Shown here: in pieces, positions 2,090-9,980 of the stretch
How positions within the stretch are numbered: position 1 is the stretch's first letter
Layout: every line of letters begins with the position of its first letter
From: Psychrobacter frigidicola
GTDB taxonomy: Bacteria; Pseudomonadota; Gammaproteobacteria; Pseudomonadales; Moraxellaceae
Direction of reading: 5' to 3'
DNA: 64,000 nucleotides
NCBI RefSeq assembly: GCF_007997305.1
Contig: NZ_VORZ01000002.1
Coordinates: 496,001 to 560,000 of the forward strand
Program-made: the position numbers and the translations under genes
The notes under the pieces: model-generated
The model's database searches: none
Seen by the model: only the letters and a program-made list of their open reading frames with translations
Told to the model about the DNA's origin: nothing

Positions 2090-3007
2090 ATGTCAATTTC
2101 AATCACTCATAAAGCCTTGTGGCTGGCCCCGCTTAGCGCCGCTATGCTGATGCTGGCAAGCTGTAGTAATAGTTCAACGCCAGAAGATGGCGCGGCCATC
2201 GATGCCGCTGCTGATGGTGCTCCAATGACGATAAAAATAGCGACAGAATCCAGTTATAAACCTTTTAGTTATACCGATGCTGATGGCAAGCTTATTGGCT
2301 ATGAGATTGAGCTGGTTGAAGCCCTTTGCGCGCAAATGAAAGCGGATTGCGATATCATCTCGCAAGACTGGGATGGCTTGATTCCGGGCTTAAATGCCCA
2401 AAAATTTGATGCGATTATGGCGGGTATCTCAATCACGCCTGAGCGTCAAGAAGTAATCGAATTCTCGGATCCCTACTTTCATACCAGTATCATTTTAATT
2501 GGTAAAAAAGGTGACGATGTCAGTATTGATGCCCTCAAAGGTCAGCCTGTTGGCTCACAGCGTGCAACGGTTGCCTCGCAGTATTTGCAAGATAAGCATG
2601 CCGAAGCGGATATCAAACTTTATGACACTCAAGACAATGCTTATTTAGATCTGACCTCAGGTCGCGTTCGCGCGATGATGTCAGACAAAGTTACGGGTAT
2701 CGATTGGTTAAAAACGCCCGCTGGCAAAGATTATGAAGTTAAAGGACAAGAAATCAGCACTGACGAAGATGCAATGGGCATTGGCTTTCGTAAAGGCGAT
2801 CCTTTAGTGGCTAAATTCAATAAAGCGTTGGCTGAGATAAAAGCCAATGGCACTTACGATCAAATCTCTGGCAGCTACTTTGGTACTAGCTCTACGGCTG
2901 CCGCGCAAAAAGCAGTCGCGAGCAGCGATGTCAAAGACGTATTGGTGATCGAGGAAGATAATGCTGACCTTAATGATATAAACGTTGACACTGTTACTGC
3001 TAAATAA
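2090..3007 (+). CDS. Amino acid ABC transporter substrate-binding lipoprotein (second of three)
   Basis: Paralogue of the preceding gene, 305 aa, with a lipoprotein signal (lipobox LASC, Cys25) and the same periplasmic amino-acid-binding fold: ESSYKPFSYTDADGK, then IPGLNAQKFDAIMAGISITP, and the GQPVGSQRATVASQ hinge-side stretch. A C-terminal tail of roughly 35 residues after the conserved GSYFG end is Ala/Asp/Val-rich and absent from the first paralogue. An AAAGGAATAAT ribosome site precedes the ATG. Separated by only 76 bases from the first gene, so co-transcription is likely. Probably widens the ligand range of the shared transporter. Confidence 0.9.
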   Translation: MSISITHKALWLAPLSAAMLMLASCSNSSTPEDGAAIDAAADGAPMTIKIATESSYKPFSYTDADGKLIGYEIELVEALCAQMKADCDIISQDWDGLIPGLNAQKFDAIMAGISITPERQEVIEFSDPYFHTSIILIGKKGDDVSIDALKGQPVGSQRATVASQYLQDKHAEADIKLYDTQDNAYLDLTSGRVRAMMSDKVTGIDWLKTPAGKDYEVKGQEISTDEDAMGIGFRKGDPLVAKFNKALAEIKANGTYDQISGSYFGTSSTAAAQKAVASSDVKDVLVIEEDNADLNDINVDTVTAK

Positions 3008-3080
3008 CGTTATGCAAAAGTGGTAATTAACGGATTATCGTAAACCGTCTTTTTATTGAGTAAGCAAGTCAAGGATGACT

Positions 3081-3959
3081 ATGAGCAAAGTTTTAACCCC
3101 AATTTTAGCAAGCGTGGCTGCTGTAAGTTTAACACTAGCAGGCTGTAGTAATAATCAGGACAGTGTTGATAAAGGCGCTACAGATGCTACAAACACTACC
3201 GCCGCTACGACGGGTGACGTGCTACGCATTGGTACAGAAGGGGCGTATGCGCCTTTTAACTATACCAATGCTGATGGTACGCTTGGCGGCTTTGATGTTG
3301 ATATTGCCAATGCGCTATGCGCGGACATGAACGTCACTTGTGAGATCACCGCGCAAGACTGGGATGGTATTATCCCAGGGCTAAAAGCAGGTAAGTATGA
3401 TGCGATTGTGGCGGCAATGTCAGTGACACCTGAGCGCGCGCAACAAGTCAGCTTTACCGAGCCGTACTTTAGTAATACGTTGGTGTTTTTGGCCAAAAAA
3501 GACAGCCCCTTTGACCCAAGTAATGACAGCGATATCAATGCGCATTCGATTGCGGCTCAGCGTGCTACCATCTCCTCTCAGTGGTTTGAAAAAGCGTATC
3601 CAAAAGCGAATATGAAGTTGTATGATACTTTAAGCAATGCATTTTTGGACTTAGGGTCAGGTCGTGTTGATGCGATGATATCTGATAAACTGCCGGCGTT
3701 GCAGTGGCTTGGTTCGCCATCTGGTAGCAATTATAGGCTTAAAGGTGATGAGATTGATATCAATGATAACTTTGCGATTGCCGTGCGTCCAGGTGACGAT
3801 CTGCAAGCAAAGATTAATCAATCGCTCGCCAATATCAAAGCCAATGGTACTTACGATAAAATCAATCAACAATACTTTGCGGTGCCAGTAGCCGCTAATA
3901 CTACGACAGTAGTTACTGAATCTTCTGAGCCTACAAAAGAAAATAGTACTGGAAAATAA
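3081..3959 (+). CDS. Amino acid ABC transporter substrate-binding lipoprotein (third of three)
   Basis: Third paralogue of the series. An ATG at 3075 overlaps the AAGGA motif at 3071-3075, so the in-frame ATG at 3081 is the better start (292 aa). Lipobox LAGC is followed by a Ser/Asn/Thr-rich linker and the solute-binding fold (EGAYAPFNYTNADG, MSVTPERAQQVSFTEPYF). A low-complexity Thr/Ser tail ends the protein, again beyond the fold. Like its siblings it should be a lipid-anchored periplasmic receptor for a polar amino acid. The gene is followed by a strong terminator at 4009-4047, so it ends the binding-protein transcription unit. Confidence 0.9.
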   Translation: MSKVLTPILASVAAVSLTLAGCSNNQDSVDKGATDATNTTAATTGDVLRIGTEGAYAPFNYTNADGTLGGFDVDIANALCADMNVTCEITAQDWDGIIPGLKAGKYDAIVAAMSVTPERAQQVSFTEPYFSNTLVFLAKKDSPFDPSNDSDINAHSIAAQRATISSQWFEKAYPKANMKLYDTLSNAFLDLGSGRVDAMISDKLPALQWLGSPSGSNYRLKGDEIDINDNFAIAVRPGDDLQAKINQSLANIKANGTYDKINQQYFAVPVAANTTTVVTESSEPTKENSTGK

Positions 3960-5137: not shown

Positions 5138-5863
5138 ATGGATTGGAATTGGCAGGTTATTTTTGATCATATCCCAGACTTGTTAGGCGGTGCGGTCTTG
5201 ACCGTGCAGTTGGTCGTTATCTCCGGTATTATTGGGCTATTTTTTGGCTTAATTTTAGCGCAACTGCGCTTGTCTAAAAGCTGGGCGGTGCAGATATTAC
5301 CCTTCTCTTATATTTTCTTTTTCCGTGGCACGCCGCTGTTGGTGCAAATCTTCTTAATTTATTACGGTCTTGGGCAATTCGAAGCCGTTCGTAATTCTTT
5401 TTTATGGGAGCCAGTACTGAGCCAAGCGTACTGGTGTGCCATCATTGCGTTTACCTTGAATACTAGCGCCTATTTAGCAGAGATTATTCGCGGCGCCATT
5501 CAGACTATTCCTGTTGGTGAGCTTGAAGCAGCGGATGCGATTGGCATGTCAAAATGGCAGAAGCTAACACGCATCACCTTGCCGCGTGCTTTTGGTATTG
5601 TGATTCCTGCCTACAGTAACGAAGTGATTTTTATGCTTAAAGGCAGCGCCTTAGCATCGACCATTGCCTTGATGGATATCACCGGCGTTGCCCGTACTAT
5701 CAGTGCACGTACTTATACTTTGATGGAGCTGTTCTTTGCAGCAGGTATCGTTTACCTGTTGTTATCTTGGGTGATTTTATTCAGTTTTAGATTGTTTGAA
5801 AAACGAATGAATCGTTACATGACCTATGTGCCGCCAGATGTGGTCACACATACCATTCCTTAA
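5138..5863 (+). CDS. Polar amino acid ABC transporter permease (HisM-like)
   Basis: Second permease subunit, 241 aa, with four to five predicted membrane helices, the FRGTPLLVQ motif typical of amino acid permeases and an EAA loop at GELEAADAIGMSKWQK followed by LPRAFGIVIPAYSNE. A good ribosome site (AGGAGAGA) precedes the ATG. It lies 13 bases downstream of its partner permease, so the two are certainly co-translated. Expected to form the translocation pore with the preceding gene. Its last transcript part contains a 9-bp hairpin at 5906-5939 without a T-run. Confidence 0.92.
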   Translation: MDWNWQVIFDHIPDLLGGAVLTVQLVVISGIIGLFFGLILAQLRLSKSWAVQILPFSYIFFFRGTPLLVQIFLIYYGLGQFEAVRNSFLWEPVLSQAYWCAIIAFTLNTSAYLAEIIRGAIQTIPVGELEAADAIGMSKWQKLTRITLPRAFGIVIPAYSNEVIFMLKGSALASTIALMDITGVARTISARTYTLMELFFAAGIVYLLLSWVILFSFRLFEKRMNRYMTYVPPDVVTHTIP

Positions 5864-6048: not shown

Positions 6049-7920
6049 TTGAACAAAGAGCTGAGTAAAGATTCGAGTAATAATTTAAGTGAAAGTTTAA
6101 GTGAAAATCTGAATAACGAGTCGAGTGTGAGTTTAAACAAAGAGCCGAGTGAGAGTGTAAGTAAAGACTTAGACCAAGGTCTGAATAAAGATTTAGATGA
6201 AACCCTAATTGTGAAAAAAAAGAAGAAAAAGAAGAAAAAAGCGCAGTCAGAGATGACTGAAAAATCGTTTGAAGAGTTTCTTAAAAAGCTGATTAAAAAA
6301 ACGAATAAAGAATCGTCTAAAAAAACCAGCGGGAAAGAAAAAGCCGCTGATGTTGATCCCAATGTCCAAGCACCGCTAGGAACCTCAAAAGCGGTCGAAA
6401 CCATGTTTCGTAACGCCTTGCGCACCGAACTTGACTTGATTGCACTGGCTGCAACCAAAGCCAATATCATGATTTCGATGAACGGCATTATTATTTCCGC
6501 CCTCATGATTTCTGGGGCCTTTATCTTCGTGTCGTCAGCATCCTTTCTGATTCCGGCAGCCATGTTCATGTTTACCGCTGCTGCCTCGATTTTCTTTGCT
6601 ATTCTCGCAGCTTCTCCAGAAAAAGCGCATTACTTTACTGGGTTTTCCAATTGGTTTAAAGCATTCATTAAGCGTGATGCTAATTTTCGCGATTTTCGTG
6701 GATTTTTGGCACGTGCCAACCGCTCGTCAGATGGTAAAGTCAATCTGCTGATTAATAAAGATCGTATGCAATTGTCTCGTGAAGAGTATTGGGAACGCAT
6801 GCAAATTATGATGCGTGACCGTGATGAGACTTATCATTCCATGAGTGATCAGTTGTATTGGCTTGGTCAAATCGCTGCGCGCAATGGTAAAATGCTCAAT
6901 ATATCGTATTCTATCTTCCGCTGGGGCATGCTGGCCTCTGTATTGGCATCGATACTCTTAAAAGCAGTACTGTTCTTTTATCCAGCGGCAGCCTCAGATG
7001 TTCCGCCACAATTGGATGCCATGGGCATGGGCACGCTAGTAGGTGTTTATGAGCCTTCAGCCGTTCAGCAACTTCCTGACGGTCGCGTGTTAGTGGTTGA
7101 AGATGAAGAGCAGCGGGCGATGAACCTTATGACGGTCGCACCTGATGGCAGTTTGAGTGAAAACGCGGTGGCAAGCTTACAGCTAACACGTAGTTTTGGC
7201 CGCAAGCTGAATGACTTAGAAGGCTTAACTGCCGATGATAAAGGCTTTATCTACGCCATCACCTCACACTCGTCAGATACCAGCGGCAAACGTGAGACTA
7301 CTCGTGAACAACTGCTACGCTTCCGTATCAATGGCAATATAGCTGGGGACATCTCGGATGTGAATACGTTGCGTGATGAGCTTGTGAAGTCGCCGGTTCT
7401 TGATGCCGCGTTTAAAGCGCGCATGAATACTAGTGTGAACTTTGATGAGCTCGATATCGAAGGCTTGGCTTATGACAACAGCACCCACTCGCTGATGCTT
7501 GGCTTGCGTGCACCAATGGCAGGAAAATCGTCCATTATTGTGCCTATCATCAACTCAGATGAGATGTTCACTAATAAAGTGCCTCCTGTATTTGGTCAGC
7601 CTATCTTCCTTGATTTGAACGGTGGCGGTATTCGCTCATTGTATTTTGACCCTGTTTTAGGGCTGTTCGTCATTGCTAACGAAATTAATGATCCCGCTGG
7701 CAATAAACAGGCGCAAATTTGGACGTGGACAGGTGATCCTAAAGACAAGCCGATGAAAATAGACACACCTGAATTAGCAGCGCTAAAAAATATCGAAGCC
7801 ATTGATACTATTACCGCCAACGGCACTATTAAAATGATATTTATGGCAGATGAGGGCGATGCCAAAAAAGGCGTTCATGCCAGATATGTGATGTTGGATT
7901 ATAAGAAATTTACGCAGTAG
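6049..7920 (+). CDS. PycTM (DUF5706)-like membrane domain fused to a DUF3616-like beta-propeller
   Basis: 623 aa, TTG start with AGGTG four bases upstream. Residues 1-55 are a low-complexity Ser/Asn/Leu/Glu/Lys repeat ending in nine consecutive Lys. Residues about 120-310 resemble the Pycsar effector transmembrane domain (PycTM, formerly DUF5706): ETMFRNALRTELDLIA, KANIMISMNGIIIS, two membrane helices, a basic cytoplasmic stretch with LSREEYWERMQIMMRDRD, and a third helix (MLASVLASILLKAVLFF). Residues about 325-620 resemble DUF3616: YEPSAVQQLPDGRVLVVEDE, LNDLEGLTADDKGFIYAI, LDIEGLAYD, LMLGLRAPM, FMADEGD. Positive-inside topology predicts a periplasmic propeller. No nucleotide cyclase is adjacent, so a classical Pycsar role is not supported. 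Family names are assigned from motif memory; function is unknown. Confidence 0.75.
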   Translation: MNKELSKDSSNNLSESLSENLNNESSVSLNKEPSESVSKDLDQGLNKDLDETLIVKKKKKKKKKAQSEMTEKSFEEFLKKLIKKTNKESSKKTSGKEKAADVDPNVQAPLGTSKAVETMFRNALRTELDLIALAATKANIMISMNGIIISALMISGAFIFVSSASFLIPAAMFMFTAAASIFFAILAASPEKAHYFTGFSNWFKAFIKRDANFRDFRGFLARANRSSDGKVNLLINKDRMQLSREEYWERMQIMMRDRDETYHSMSDQLYWLGQIAARNGKMLNISYSIFRWGMLASVLASILLKAVLFFYPAAASDVPPQLDAMGMGTLVGVYEPSAVQQLPDGRVLVVEDEEQRAMNLMTVAPDGSLSENAVASLQLTRSFGRKLNDLEGLTADDKGFIYAITSHSSDTSGKRETTREQLLRFRINGNIAGDISDVNTLRDELVKSPVLDAAFKARMNTSVNFDELDIEGLAYDNSTHSLMLGLRAPMAGKSSIIVPIINSDEMFTNKVPPVFGQPIFLDLNGGGIRSLYFDPVLGLFVIANEINDPAGNKQAQIWTWTGDPKDKPMKIDTPELAALKNIEAIDTITANGTIKMIFMADEGDAKKGVHARYVMLDYKKFTQ

Positions 7921-7980
7921 GTAGTATCAATCGGTTGTAAGTTTCGAATGTTACCAAATAATTACCAATAACGTTCATTA

Positions 7981-8035
7981 TGTCAATTAAATAGATTGTG
8001 TGGTTACGTTAAACCACATAATTTATTTAATGACA
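7981..8035. repeat. 55-base imperfect palindrome between the two propeller genes
   Basis: Arms 7981-8005 and 8012-8035 are reverse complements apart from one extra base and two mismatches, around the loop ACGTTA. It is A+T-rich and no T-run follows the stem. It may limit read-through between the two genes, stabilise mRNA, or be a small mobile repeat. Confidence 0.65.
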
Positions 8036-8092
8036 CACATCATCTCGTTTTATAATAAGTCTTATCAATAATGTTTAGCATGAGACGCTATT

Positions 8093-9139
8093 ATGAGCCA
8101 AATGCAGTCACCAATTATTTCTTCTTCAGTTCTTCGGTTAGCAATAATTGCCTCAATTTTGTCCGTTGTGATTATCAGTCTATTTTTATTTTTCTATCCA
8201 AGTAGCTCGGTAAATGCAGCAGAAGCGTCGCCAAGTCTGAATGATGGCTTAGGAACTTTTAGCAATATTTATGAGCCGTCAGCCGTATTGCAGCTTCCTG
8301 ATGGTCGAGTGCTGGTCGTTGAAGATGAAGAGCATCGGGCGCTAAATATTTTAACAATTTCGGACAAGGGTAGCTTTGTTGAAAATGCGGATGCTAATCT
8401 TAAGCTTAGCCAAGGATTTGAGCACAAGCTTGATGATCTAGAAGGATTAACTGCCGATCATAATGGCTTTATTTATGTTACTACCTCACATTCTTCACTG
8501 AAAAATGGTAAGCGCAGACACAACCGTGAACAGCTGATACGTTTTCGCGTAAACGGTGATACGGTTCAGGATGTCAGCACGGTCAAAACATTGCGTGATG
8601 AATTGACCCAATCAAAACCGATCATAGCGGCGATTAAAGCAAAAACGGGTAAGGCGCCTGATTTTGATACGCTGAATATAGAAGGCCTAACGTATGCCCA
8701 TAAAACCGATGATTTACTGCTTGGCTTGCGGGCCCCAATGGCAGGAGAATCGGCCATTATTATTGCTATTGAAAACCCAGCTGAAGTATTCGAAACTAAC
8801 GCCGCGCCCATATTTGGCAAGCCTATTTTTCTGAACTTAGAGGGTGGTGGTATTCGCTCACTGCATTTTAGTACCATTTTAAATAAATACGTTATTGCCA
8901 ACGAAGTTCCAGATGCCAAAGGTAAAAACTATTCAAAAATATGGACGTGGAGTGGTAATCCTAAAGACGCGCCGGTATTTATTGACCTACCTGAACTCTC
9001 AGATCTAAAGAACATCGAAGGTATTGATTCAGTGAAAGTAAATGGGGTTGCCAAACTATTATTTACCGCAGATGAAGGTGATGAGAAAAAGGAAATCCCT
9101 GCTAAGTATCGCTTTGTAGATGAAGCTAAGTTTAAATAG
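8093..9139 (+). CDS. Exported DUF3616-like beta-propeller protein, paralogue of the preceding C-terminal domain
   Basis: 348 aa. The N-terminal hydrophobic stretch (LRLAIIASILSVVIISLFLF) is followed by a signal-peptidase-like VNAAEA, so the protein is either secreted to the periplasm or anchored by one helix. The remainder aligns almost end to end with the propeller half of the upstream protein: YEPSAVLQLPDGRVLVVEDE, LDDLEGLTADHNGFIYV, LNIEGLTYA, LLLGLRAPMAGES, IRSLHFS, FTADEGDEKK. The similarity begins at the third membrane helix of the upstream protein, so this looks like a duplication that dropped the PycTM part. The two probably act in the same compartment, perhaps as partners or as ligand competitor and sensor. 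Function unknown. Confidence 0.8.
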   Translation: MSQMQSPIISSSVLRLAIIASILSVVIISLFLFFYPSSSVNAAEASPSLNDGLGTFSNIYEPSAVLQLPDGRVLVVEDEEHRALNILTISDKGSFVENADANLKLSQGFEHKLDDLEGLTADHNGFIYVTTSHSSLKNGKRRHNREQLIRFRVNGDTVQDVSTVKTLRDELTQSKPIIAAIKAKTGKAPDFDTLNIEGLTYAHKTDDLLLGLRAPMAGESAIIIAIENPAEVFETNAAPIFGKPIFLNLEGGGIRSLHFSTILNKYVIANEVPDAKGKNYSKIWTWSGNPKDAPVFIDLPELSDLKNIEGIDSVKVNGVAKLLFTADEGDEKKEIPAKYRFVDEAKFK

Positions 9140-9254: not shown

Positions 9255-9980
9255 ATGAATCAATCCCCACACACGTCCATGGCTGAGTTGATAGTAGATA
9301 GCGTTAGTGCTATTGACGAAAAGGCGGTTAATGCTGATGCCAATCGTAACTCGCAGAGTACTATCGGTAAGGTCGTTTGTGTTGGGCGTAATTACGCGGC
9401 TCATGCTCATGAATTGGGTAATGAGGTTCCAACCTCACCATTGTTATTTATGAAGCCTGCATCGTCTGTGGTTACTGTGCGAGATAATATTGTGCGTCCA
9501 AATCCCGGCATTTTTGGTGAGATGCATTATGAGGCGGAGCTATGTATTCAATTGTCGGCAAACTTGAGTGCGGCAACTGTTGAGCAAGTACAGCAAGCGA
9601 TTGGTGGTGTGACTTTGGGGCTGGACTTAACCTTACGTGATTTGCAAAGTAAGCTGAAAGACAAAGGTCAGCCATGGGAGCGTGCCAAGTGTTTTGATGG
9701 CGCTTGTGTGCTTGCTGATTGGGTCGAACCGCAAGCGTTTGGCGATTTTAGCCAAGTGCACTATCAACTTTATATTAATGATACGCTAAAGCAAGATGGC
9801 GATAGTGCGTTGATGCTGTTTCCCGTATACGAGTTGCTCGCTGAAATTAGTCATGCGTTTAGTCTGCAAGCAGGTGATGTGATTATGACCGGCACGCCAA
9901 GTGGTGTTGGCATATTGCAAGCGGGTGATGAGCTCAAATTAGTACTGGGCGCGCACGAATGGCAAACACGCGTGGACTAA
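9255..9980 (+). CDS. Fumarylacetoacetate hydrolase family protein (YcgM-like)
   Basis: FAH-superfamily enzyme, 241 aa, cytoplasmic. The C-terminal about 205 residues form the FAH domain: VCVGRNYAAHAHE, SPLLFMKPASS, the metal-binding acidic residues in HYEAELCIQL, LGLDLTLRDLQ with GQPWERAK, and GDVIMTGTPSGVG. These fit acylpyruvate hydrolase or oxaloacetate tautomerase-type members such as E. coli YcgM. The first 35 residues are not conserved-looking; an alternative start inside them is possible. No catabolic partner genes are adjacent, and a strong terminator at 10007-10041 shows it is monocistronic. Exact substrate uncertain. Confidence 0.85.
   Translation: MNQSPHTSMAELIVDSVSAIDEKAVNADANRNSQSTIGKVVCVGRNYAAHAHELGNEVPTSPLLFMKPASSVVTVRDNIVRPNPGIFGEMHYEAELCIQLSANLSAATVEQVQQAIGGVTLGLDLTLRDLQSKLKDKGQPWERAKCFDGACVLADWVEPQAFGDFSQVHYQLYINDTLKQDGDSALMLFPVYELLAEISHAFSLQAGDVIMTGTPSGVGILQAGDELKLVLGAHEWQTRVD

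Follow-up and report, generated by a model that had tools for sequence, protein, structure and literature searches.

A fused gene and its propeller-only duplicate

Two adjacent genes of Psychrobacter frigidicola, lying in a window of 64,000 nucleotides of contig NZ_VORZ01000002.1 (the whole stretch analysed here, positions 496,001 to 560,000), encode homologous propeller proteins, of which only the upstream one also carries a PycTM membrane part. Their homology, the order of events behind it, their co-inheritance, the selection acting on them and the intact core of the propeller are all supported by the data below. On this basis we tentatively favour, at a little under an even chance, the reading that a fused ancestral gene was duplicated and that the downstream copy may now be a propeller partner in trans, or a regulator, of the unit formed by the upstream one, and not a dead decoy.

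Both genes are on the + strand, one behind the other. Gene 1 (6049-7920) has a TTG start and a product of 623 aa, and gene 2 (8093-9139) an ATG start and a product of 348 aa. The pair is flanked upstream by an ArtM-like ABC permease gene (5138-5863) and downstream by a gene for an FAA hydrolase (9255-9980). Further upstream of the art permeases, three tandem genes for substrate-binding proteins (1216-2013, 2090-3007 and 3075-3959) look paralogous, with ca. 40-51% in cross-matches between the copies of relatives.

Gene 1 is a fusion of a PycTM part and a DUF3616 propeller, as indicated by its reading frame, domain matches and alignment. Its lysine-rich N-terminus (6049-6340) is of low complexity, rich in K, D, L and S with nine consecutive lysines, and strongly variable among orthologues; it draws profile matches elsewhere that were taken as false. 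It is followed by a membrane hairpin at ca. residues 141-163 and 167-189 (6469-6615, limits set by eye), which stands out as a highly conserved stretch in the alignment of eight orthologues and by dN/dS, and then by a region between helices 2 and 3 (residues 193-284; 6625-6900) that would be cytosolic and into which most of the best-matching PF18967 segment (residues 225-293) falls. A third membrane helix was placed by eye and by hydrophobicity at ca. residues 292-312 (6922-6984), and the propeller, recognised by domain match and conservation and presumably extracytoplasmic, occupies 7036-7917.

The sequence-only reading had described gene 2 as a propeller-only duplicate whose homology begins at the third membrane helix of gene 1, with the propellers aligning throughout, and this was borne out by BLASTP: residues 285-621 of gene 1 align with residues 9-347 of gene 2 (183/340 identical, 54%, 4 gap positions, E 1e-131), starting ca. 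7 residues before the third helix, while the remaining pieces reach E 1.0 or worse. The PycTM domain PF18967 is found in gene 1 only (2e-12, 47.9 bits versus a cut-off of 27.2), which PADLOC also calls PycTM (1.2e-9) with nothing called for gene 2. Both propellers match DUF3616 (PF12275) above the gathering cut-off of 20.6, gene 1 at 4.6e-6 (26.7 bits) and gene 2 at 1.8e-8 (34.6 bits). According to BLASTP and a structure model, the N-terminal helix of gene 2 (residues 11-33; 8123-8191) is the counterpart of helix 3 of gene 1.

The genes are separated by a spacer of 172 bp (7921-8092) in which no PycTM remnant was seen when its three frames were read by eye. A scan of this spacer gave no terminator-like site on the + strand and a single promoter-like one (7935-7962, + strand); since promoter-like sites in the region were near chance (11 versus 8.7 expected), this site was taken as evidence neither way on co-transcription.

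Occurrence in the genus

Matches to gene 2 were obtained in 10 of 105 congeneric genomes. Eight of the 10 have both genes intact and 2 only fragments, consisting of broken pieces in one (G103) and of a match of 36 residues in the other (G026). Not one of the 105 has either gene intact alone; the pairing, which the sequence-only reading had proposed to check, holds in all eight intact carriers. Sampling the family more widely (299 genomes) gave matches in 9, all belonging to the same genus.

The seven carriers other than the window's share the order art permeases, gene 1, gene 2 and FAA hydrolase, one with two ORFs on the opposite strand between gene 2 and the hydrolase (G016) and another with a short hydrolase ORF (G080). 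The remnants in G103 and G026 sit at the same site as the intact pairs. A search with the FAA hydrolase matched all 105 genomes, at only 37-38% identity in three (G031, G044 and G055) and as a fragment only in a fourth (G087). In 26 non-carriers, which were those closest to the window's hydrolase gene and not a random sample, no remnant of the pair was detected at E 1e-3, and the permease and hydrolase matches lie 73-280 bp apart. A tree of the hydrolase (36 rows, a single short gene) left 13 of 31 inner branches open, and no conclusion on loss versus transfer was drawn from it. In three relatives an additional ORF of ca. 740 aa follows the hydrolase gene (G102, L022 9936-12170; G064, L023 10087-12312; G016, L027 11259-13487), for which no counterpart was matched over the window's first 16.5 kb.

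Order of events

In a tree of 25 propellers, the eight gene 1 copies fall on one side of a branch (fork 85/78) and the eight gene 2 copies likewise (87/82), the node uniting these 16 propellers having a support of 95/96. The nearest outgroup, a single fused protein of 701 aa from a genome of another class (G1178) in which no solo propeller copy was found, joins the 16 at 100/100. With this protein as the sole outgroup the picture is the same (gene 2 group at 88/87) and the root between the gene 1 and gene 2 groups is open. Support for gene 2 as a single clade thus ranges from 87/82 to 88/87, below star level. A separate duplication in the divergent carrier G011 was rejected (p-AU 1.6e-5), and placing the gene 2 of this carrier on the gene 1 side was not (p-AU 0.084).

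Given that the closest outgroups are fused proteins, the most economical interpretation of these sequence comparisons is that a fused ancestor underwent one tandem duplication before the carriers diverged and that the downstream copy then lost its PycTM part. The alignment, the restriction of PF18967 to gene 1 and the common origin in the tree all agree with the tandem duplication proposed from the window alone; neither an independent origin of the two genes nor a gene 2 orthologue without gene 1 was encountered. Distant solo propellers of the DUF3616 family in genomes without a PycTM match do exist but are not orthologues of gene 2.

The fused relative in G1178 (L141 6764-8869) shares 58% with the PycTM part and 52% with the propeller, and it is present in one of 120 genomes of its family, a situation that looks like horizontal transfer.

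PycTM and propeller genes outside the genus

Profiles made from the eight gene 1 proteins were used to search for the PycTM segment outside the genus. It was found in 7 genomes of a class sample (369), in 3 of a phylum sample (329) and, when families with earlier hits were followed up, in 8 more genomes of family f191 (48 searched) and 5 more of family f135 (12 searched), giving 23 genomes in total; none was added by an order sample (390) or by 119 further genomes of the family of G1178. The PycTM segment is linked to a propeller in 22 of these 23 genomes, a proportion that does not sample PycTM proteins at large, as a profile built from propeller-linked proteins favours this subfamily and two of the searches (f191 and f135) were extensions into families in which the unit had been seen before. 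The single unlinked case is G999.

The linkage takes three forms. The two parts are fused in 11 genomes (G880, G980, G770, G792, G1027, G1178 and five further f135 genomes). They are encoded by adjacent genes on one strand, PycTM first, in 7 genomes that all belong to f191, with an overlap in five, by 28 bp in G1021, G1454 and G1478, by 4 bp in G1459 and by a length that depends on an unsure start in G1476, and with 44 and 51 bp between the genes in G1457 and G1458, respectively. In the last 4 they lie within 3 kb of each other (G1453, G1475, G1201 and G1275). In G1453 the PycTM match runs across two stop codons, the PycTM part itself being covered by a 210-aa ORF, and in both G1201 and G1275 one ORF, which in G1201 is a PAS gene, separates the PycTM gene from a DUF3616-type gene on the opposite strand. 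These 22 linked genomes, with the 7 adjacent pairs of one family among them, indicate that a PycTM protein can go with a separately encoded propeller.

In G1201 (L145 6393-9880), two different propellers surround one PycTM gene, namely a divergent SdiA-regulated propeller of the YjiK type and, past the PAS gene, the DUF3616 propeller.

Most propeller-only relatives have no PycTM match in their genome. Among genomes with propeller-range matches, the phylum sample had 14 of 20 without a PycTM match, the class sample 4 of 12 and the f191 search 2 of 11. Propeller matches in the order sample came from 2 genomes; 4 others there, and G105 and G1238 in the phylum sample, matched the low-complexity N-terminus only and were disregarded. 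A fused gene together with a solo copy in one genome was not seen outside the genus.

Export and membrane sidedness

The pattern recognised by signal peptidase I consists of an alanine at -1 and a small residue or valine at -3, following a hydrophobic stretch. Gene 2 has such a predicted site, VNA/A, at residues 40-43 (8210-8221). The signal-peptidase-like site (VNA/AE) noted in the sequence-only reading is present, and a site with the -3/-1 pattern occurs soon after the hydrophobic stretch, as sorted by eye, in all eight gene 2 orthologues; the pattern is not special to gene 2, being seen near the third helix in 4 of 8 gene 1 proteins and in 4 of 6 fused outgroups. Because similar sites follow the third helix in these outgroups, the alanine site of gene 2 is weak evidence for cleavage. 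The best 19-residue stretch on the Kyte-Doolittle scale reaches 2.93 in the window's gene 2 versus 2.00 for the third helix of gene 1, and ranges from 1.61 to 2.93 over the eight gene 2 orthologues. As the helix in the window is long and very hydrophobic, a single uncut anchor appears as possible as a soluble product.

The separate propellers found elsewhere were inspected by eye in the same way. The 11 in linkage with PycTM, nine of them from f191 and the others from G1201 and G1275, have a hydrophobic start and an alanine site, the unlinked propellers of G1451 and G1442 have a cysteine as in lipoproteins, and the distant unlinked solo relatives of G842 and G697 have no export signal. The starts of the separate propellers, taken together with the lysine-rich N-terminus of gene 1, suggest that the propeller would be outside and the stretch of gene 1 between helices 2 and 3 inside. 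A model of gene 1 from two sequences failed (mean pLDDT 33.8) and was not used, so the topology of gene 1 is inferred only.

Selection and conserved residues

For the propeller, dN/dS values of 0.072 and 0.078 were obtained for gene 1 and of 0.117 and 0.053 for gene 2, two of 28 pairs being measurable in each case; in the hairpin region of gene 1 (residues 109-192) they were 0.018 and 0 (two of 28 pairs with unsaturated dS). Values are reported only for pairs with pS under 0.6, the others being dropped as saturated, and those for the cytosolic region come from 8 pairs. Between the paralogues, dN is 0.34-0.43.

The gene 2 propeller (residues 49-348; 8237-9136) carries the motifs YEPS (E61, S63), DLEG (E117), NIEG (E197), GIRS (R255) and NIEG (E309), as seen in the alignment, the model and the structural match. 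These six residues are invariant in the 16 Psychrobacter propellers, and the nine outgroups of the tree, be they fused, split or solo, have all six as well; in the alignment, two proteins of G1201 deviate, the DUF3616 one, which is more distant, at E61 and E309 and the SdiA-regulated one at R255. The two paralogues can be told apart at seven positions, where 7 or more of the 8 sequences of each group agree, and all of these positions fall within residues 282-338, the last fifth of the gene 2 propeller.

The reading frame of gene 2 is intact in all eight carriers. With its conserved core kept and with purifying selection indicated by the codon comparisons, gene 2 is evidently not a dead copy, and the dead-decoy reading is disfavoured by the invariant core residues and dN/dS values of 0.05-0.12.

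Fold of the propeller

The model of gene 2, made from four sequences, has a mean pLDDT of 76.8 and a pTM of 0.77, and consists of the N-terminal helix and a strand-rich part. Foldseek alone gave scattered propellers with low TM-scores; a second look with VIA-align ranked YjiK of E. coli (3QQZ) first among 991 aligned PDB chains (Z 20.0 and rmsd 3.0 over 228 residues); next came two glutaminyl cyclases at Z 18. Since many further propellers score Z 14-16, the fold alone tells no function. Searches by sequence found no solved relative of gene 2, and only chance-level matches for the PycTM half and for a profile of the 16 propellers; a literature search on the calcium site of nucleotidase propellers returned nothing usable.

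Possible roles of gene 2

The mechanism that we propose starts from a single fused gene that would have joined a PycTM membrane domain to an extracytoplasmic propeller and of which a tandem copy would have arisen ahead of the divergence of the present carriers. Everything before helix 3 would then have gone from the downstream copy, this helix being kept as an export signal or as a single anchor, and both propellers would lie on the periplasmic side. The propeller may be the sensing or capping part and the PycTM part may act in the inner membrane, in which case gene 2 could provide the same assembly with a further propeller in trans and so alter the number or the kind of propellers on the membrane part. 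The split PycTM and propeller gene pairs found elsewhere favour this role, and a second propeller for the same membrane unit appears the most likely function of gene 2.

Alternatively, gene 2 might encode an independent periplasmic propeller, either a binding protein or an enzyme resembling YjiK or phytase, that is uncoupled from gene 1 and whose position is a mere trace of the duplication. The abundance of solo propellers without PycTM would agree with this, those of the phylum sample including G1073 and G1188 and those of f191 being G1451 and G1442, as would YjiK and the glutaminyl cyclases being the best structural neighbours and the extent of divergence between the paralogues. However, the two genes are paired in 8/8 intact carriers and are both gone or broken in the two remnant genomes, and trans pairs of PycTM and propeller genes do occur in f191. 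We consider this independence rather unlikely.

As a second alternative, gene 2 might act as an antagonist: by competing for the ligand that gene 1 binds, or by entering gene 1 oligomers while contributing no membrane part, it would quiet the PycTM part, as an antidote or a dominant negative would. Gene 2 indeed lacks exactly the part that would act on the membrane while keeping the propeller core, and no genome of the genus has an intact gene 1 minus gene 2. Against this, the fused gene is found alone in G1178 and in seven f135 genomes, which indicates that the fused protein needs no solo copy in general. We consider an antagonist quite improbable.

It is still less probable, to the point of being very doubtful, that gene 1 is an anti-phage effector of the Pycsar type with gene 2 as an accessory of the defence system. 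The PF18967 and PADLOC matches of gene 1 would fit such a role, as would one distant genome, G792, in which the fused gene (L079 9528-13118) faces an ORF for a class III cyclase (PF00211) on the opposite strand within 1 kb, with a short ORF in between. This is the only case here of a cyclase next to a PycTM-propeller unit; in G1027, two PF00211 matches are on the contig of the fused gene, ca. 24 and 29 kb away. PF00211 cyclases were detected in 14 of 15 genomes checked, each of the 15 having one PycTM match, and also in 5 of 14 control genomes, indicating that they are common. The sole PF00211 match of the window's genome is on contig C1, the window being on C4, and no match at all was obtained in the carrier G016; Pycsar membership was set aside on these grounds. 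The constant chromosomal site of the pair in its carriers is also at odds with a defence role, as is the scarcity of mobile relatives: no match was found in 50,697 phage records and no relative in viral contigs queried with the propellers only, and plasmids gave four records that match over the propeller range only at 28-30% identity. Two of these four were inspected, one having no annotation (H1) and the other a DUF3616 protein (H4). A mobile or phage origin was discarded on the same data.

That gene 2 is a functionless duplicate in decay, as the fragments of the pair in two genomes might hint, is hardly credible given the dN/dS values of 0.117 and 0.053 (2 of 28 gene 2 pairs), the frames intact in 8/8 carriers and the invariant core.

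Significance and comparison with known systems

PycTM domains take their name from anti-phage effectors and are sought as such. The subfamily described here is joined to a propeller, by fusion or as a gene pair; it keeps one chromosomal site in the genus, and in the window's genome its contig has no cyclase gene. Comparison with distant bacteria suggests that membrane part and propeller function jointly as one little-studied unit, and this PycTM-propeller unit is the broader point. At clearly less than an even chance, we put forward the possibility that PycTM parts and DUF3616-type propellers may make up a membrane module with two faces that has yet to be described, the PycTM part lying in the membrane and cytosol and the propeller being a periplasmic cap or sensor. 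Such a module would be maintained as a fusion or as a coupled pair of genes and would have no tie to a cyclase, and this genus would have added to it by duplication a PycTM-free propeller acting in trans to set the state of the membrane part. Should this reading be true, a PycTM membrane domain would be in use outside Pycsar, there would be a risk of taking proteins of this kind for defence effectors, and a handle would be gained on DUF3616, whose name assigns it no known function. Thanks to the duplicated copy, the question can be addressed within one organism. A literature search retrieved no paper combining Pycsar and a propeller and none on DUF5706.

When compared to the PycTM effectors of Pycsar, gene 1 has the domain match (PF18967 at 2e-12, above the cut-off), which is absent from gene 2, but it differs by its fusion to a propeller and by the one chromosomal site kept in the genus. 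Pycsar is described in PMC11224242 as being activated by cCMP or cUMP and as damaging the membrane on infection. The S-2TM-beta effectors of Panoptes, as presented in PMC12657218, belong to a family different from that of the PycTM protein found here.

Regarding the propeller, both gene products score above the cut-off for DUF3616 (PF12275), a family to which a gene from a biofilm screen also belongs, as listed in PMC3130047. In its model, gene 2 would have the same propeller fold as YjiK of the SdiA-regulated family (PF06977; Z 20.0 with 3QQZ), although its score for this family (15.6 bits) is under the cut-off of 21; the SdiA-regulated protein of G1201 has blade motifs of the same kind as the gene 2 propeller. 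The phytase-like family (PF13449) is matched at 1e-8 by the split propeller partner of G1021. Finally, the closest parallel in gene arrangement is provided by the split pairs of f191 (G1021 and its relatives), in which a PycTM protein and a separate propeller occur together as in the window; their PycTM protein has no propeller of its own, whereas gene 1 has one and gene 2 represents an extra copy.
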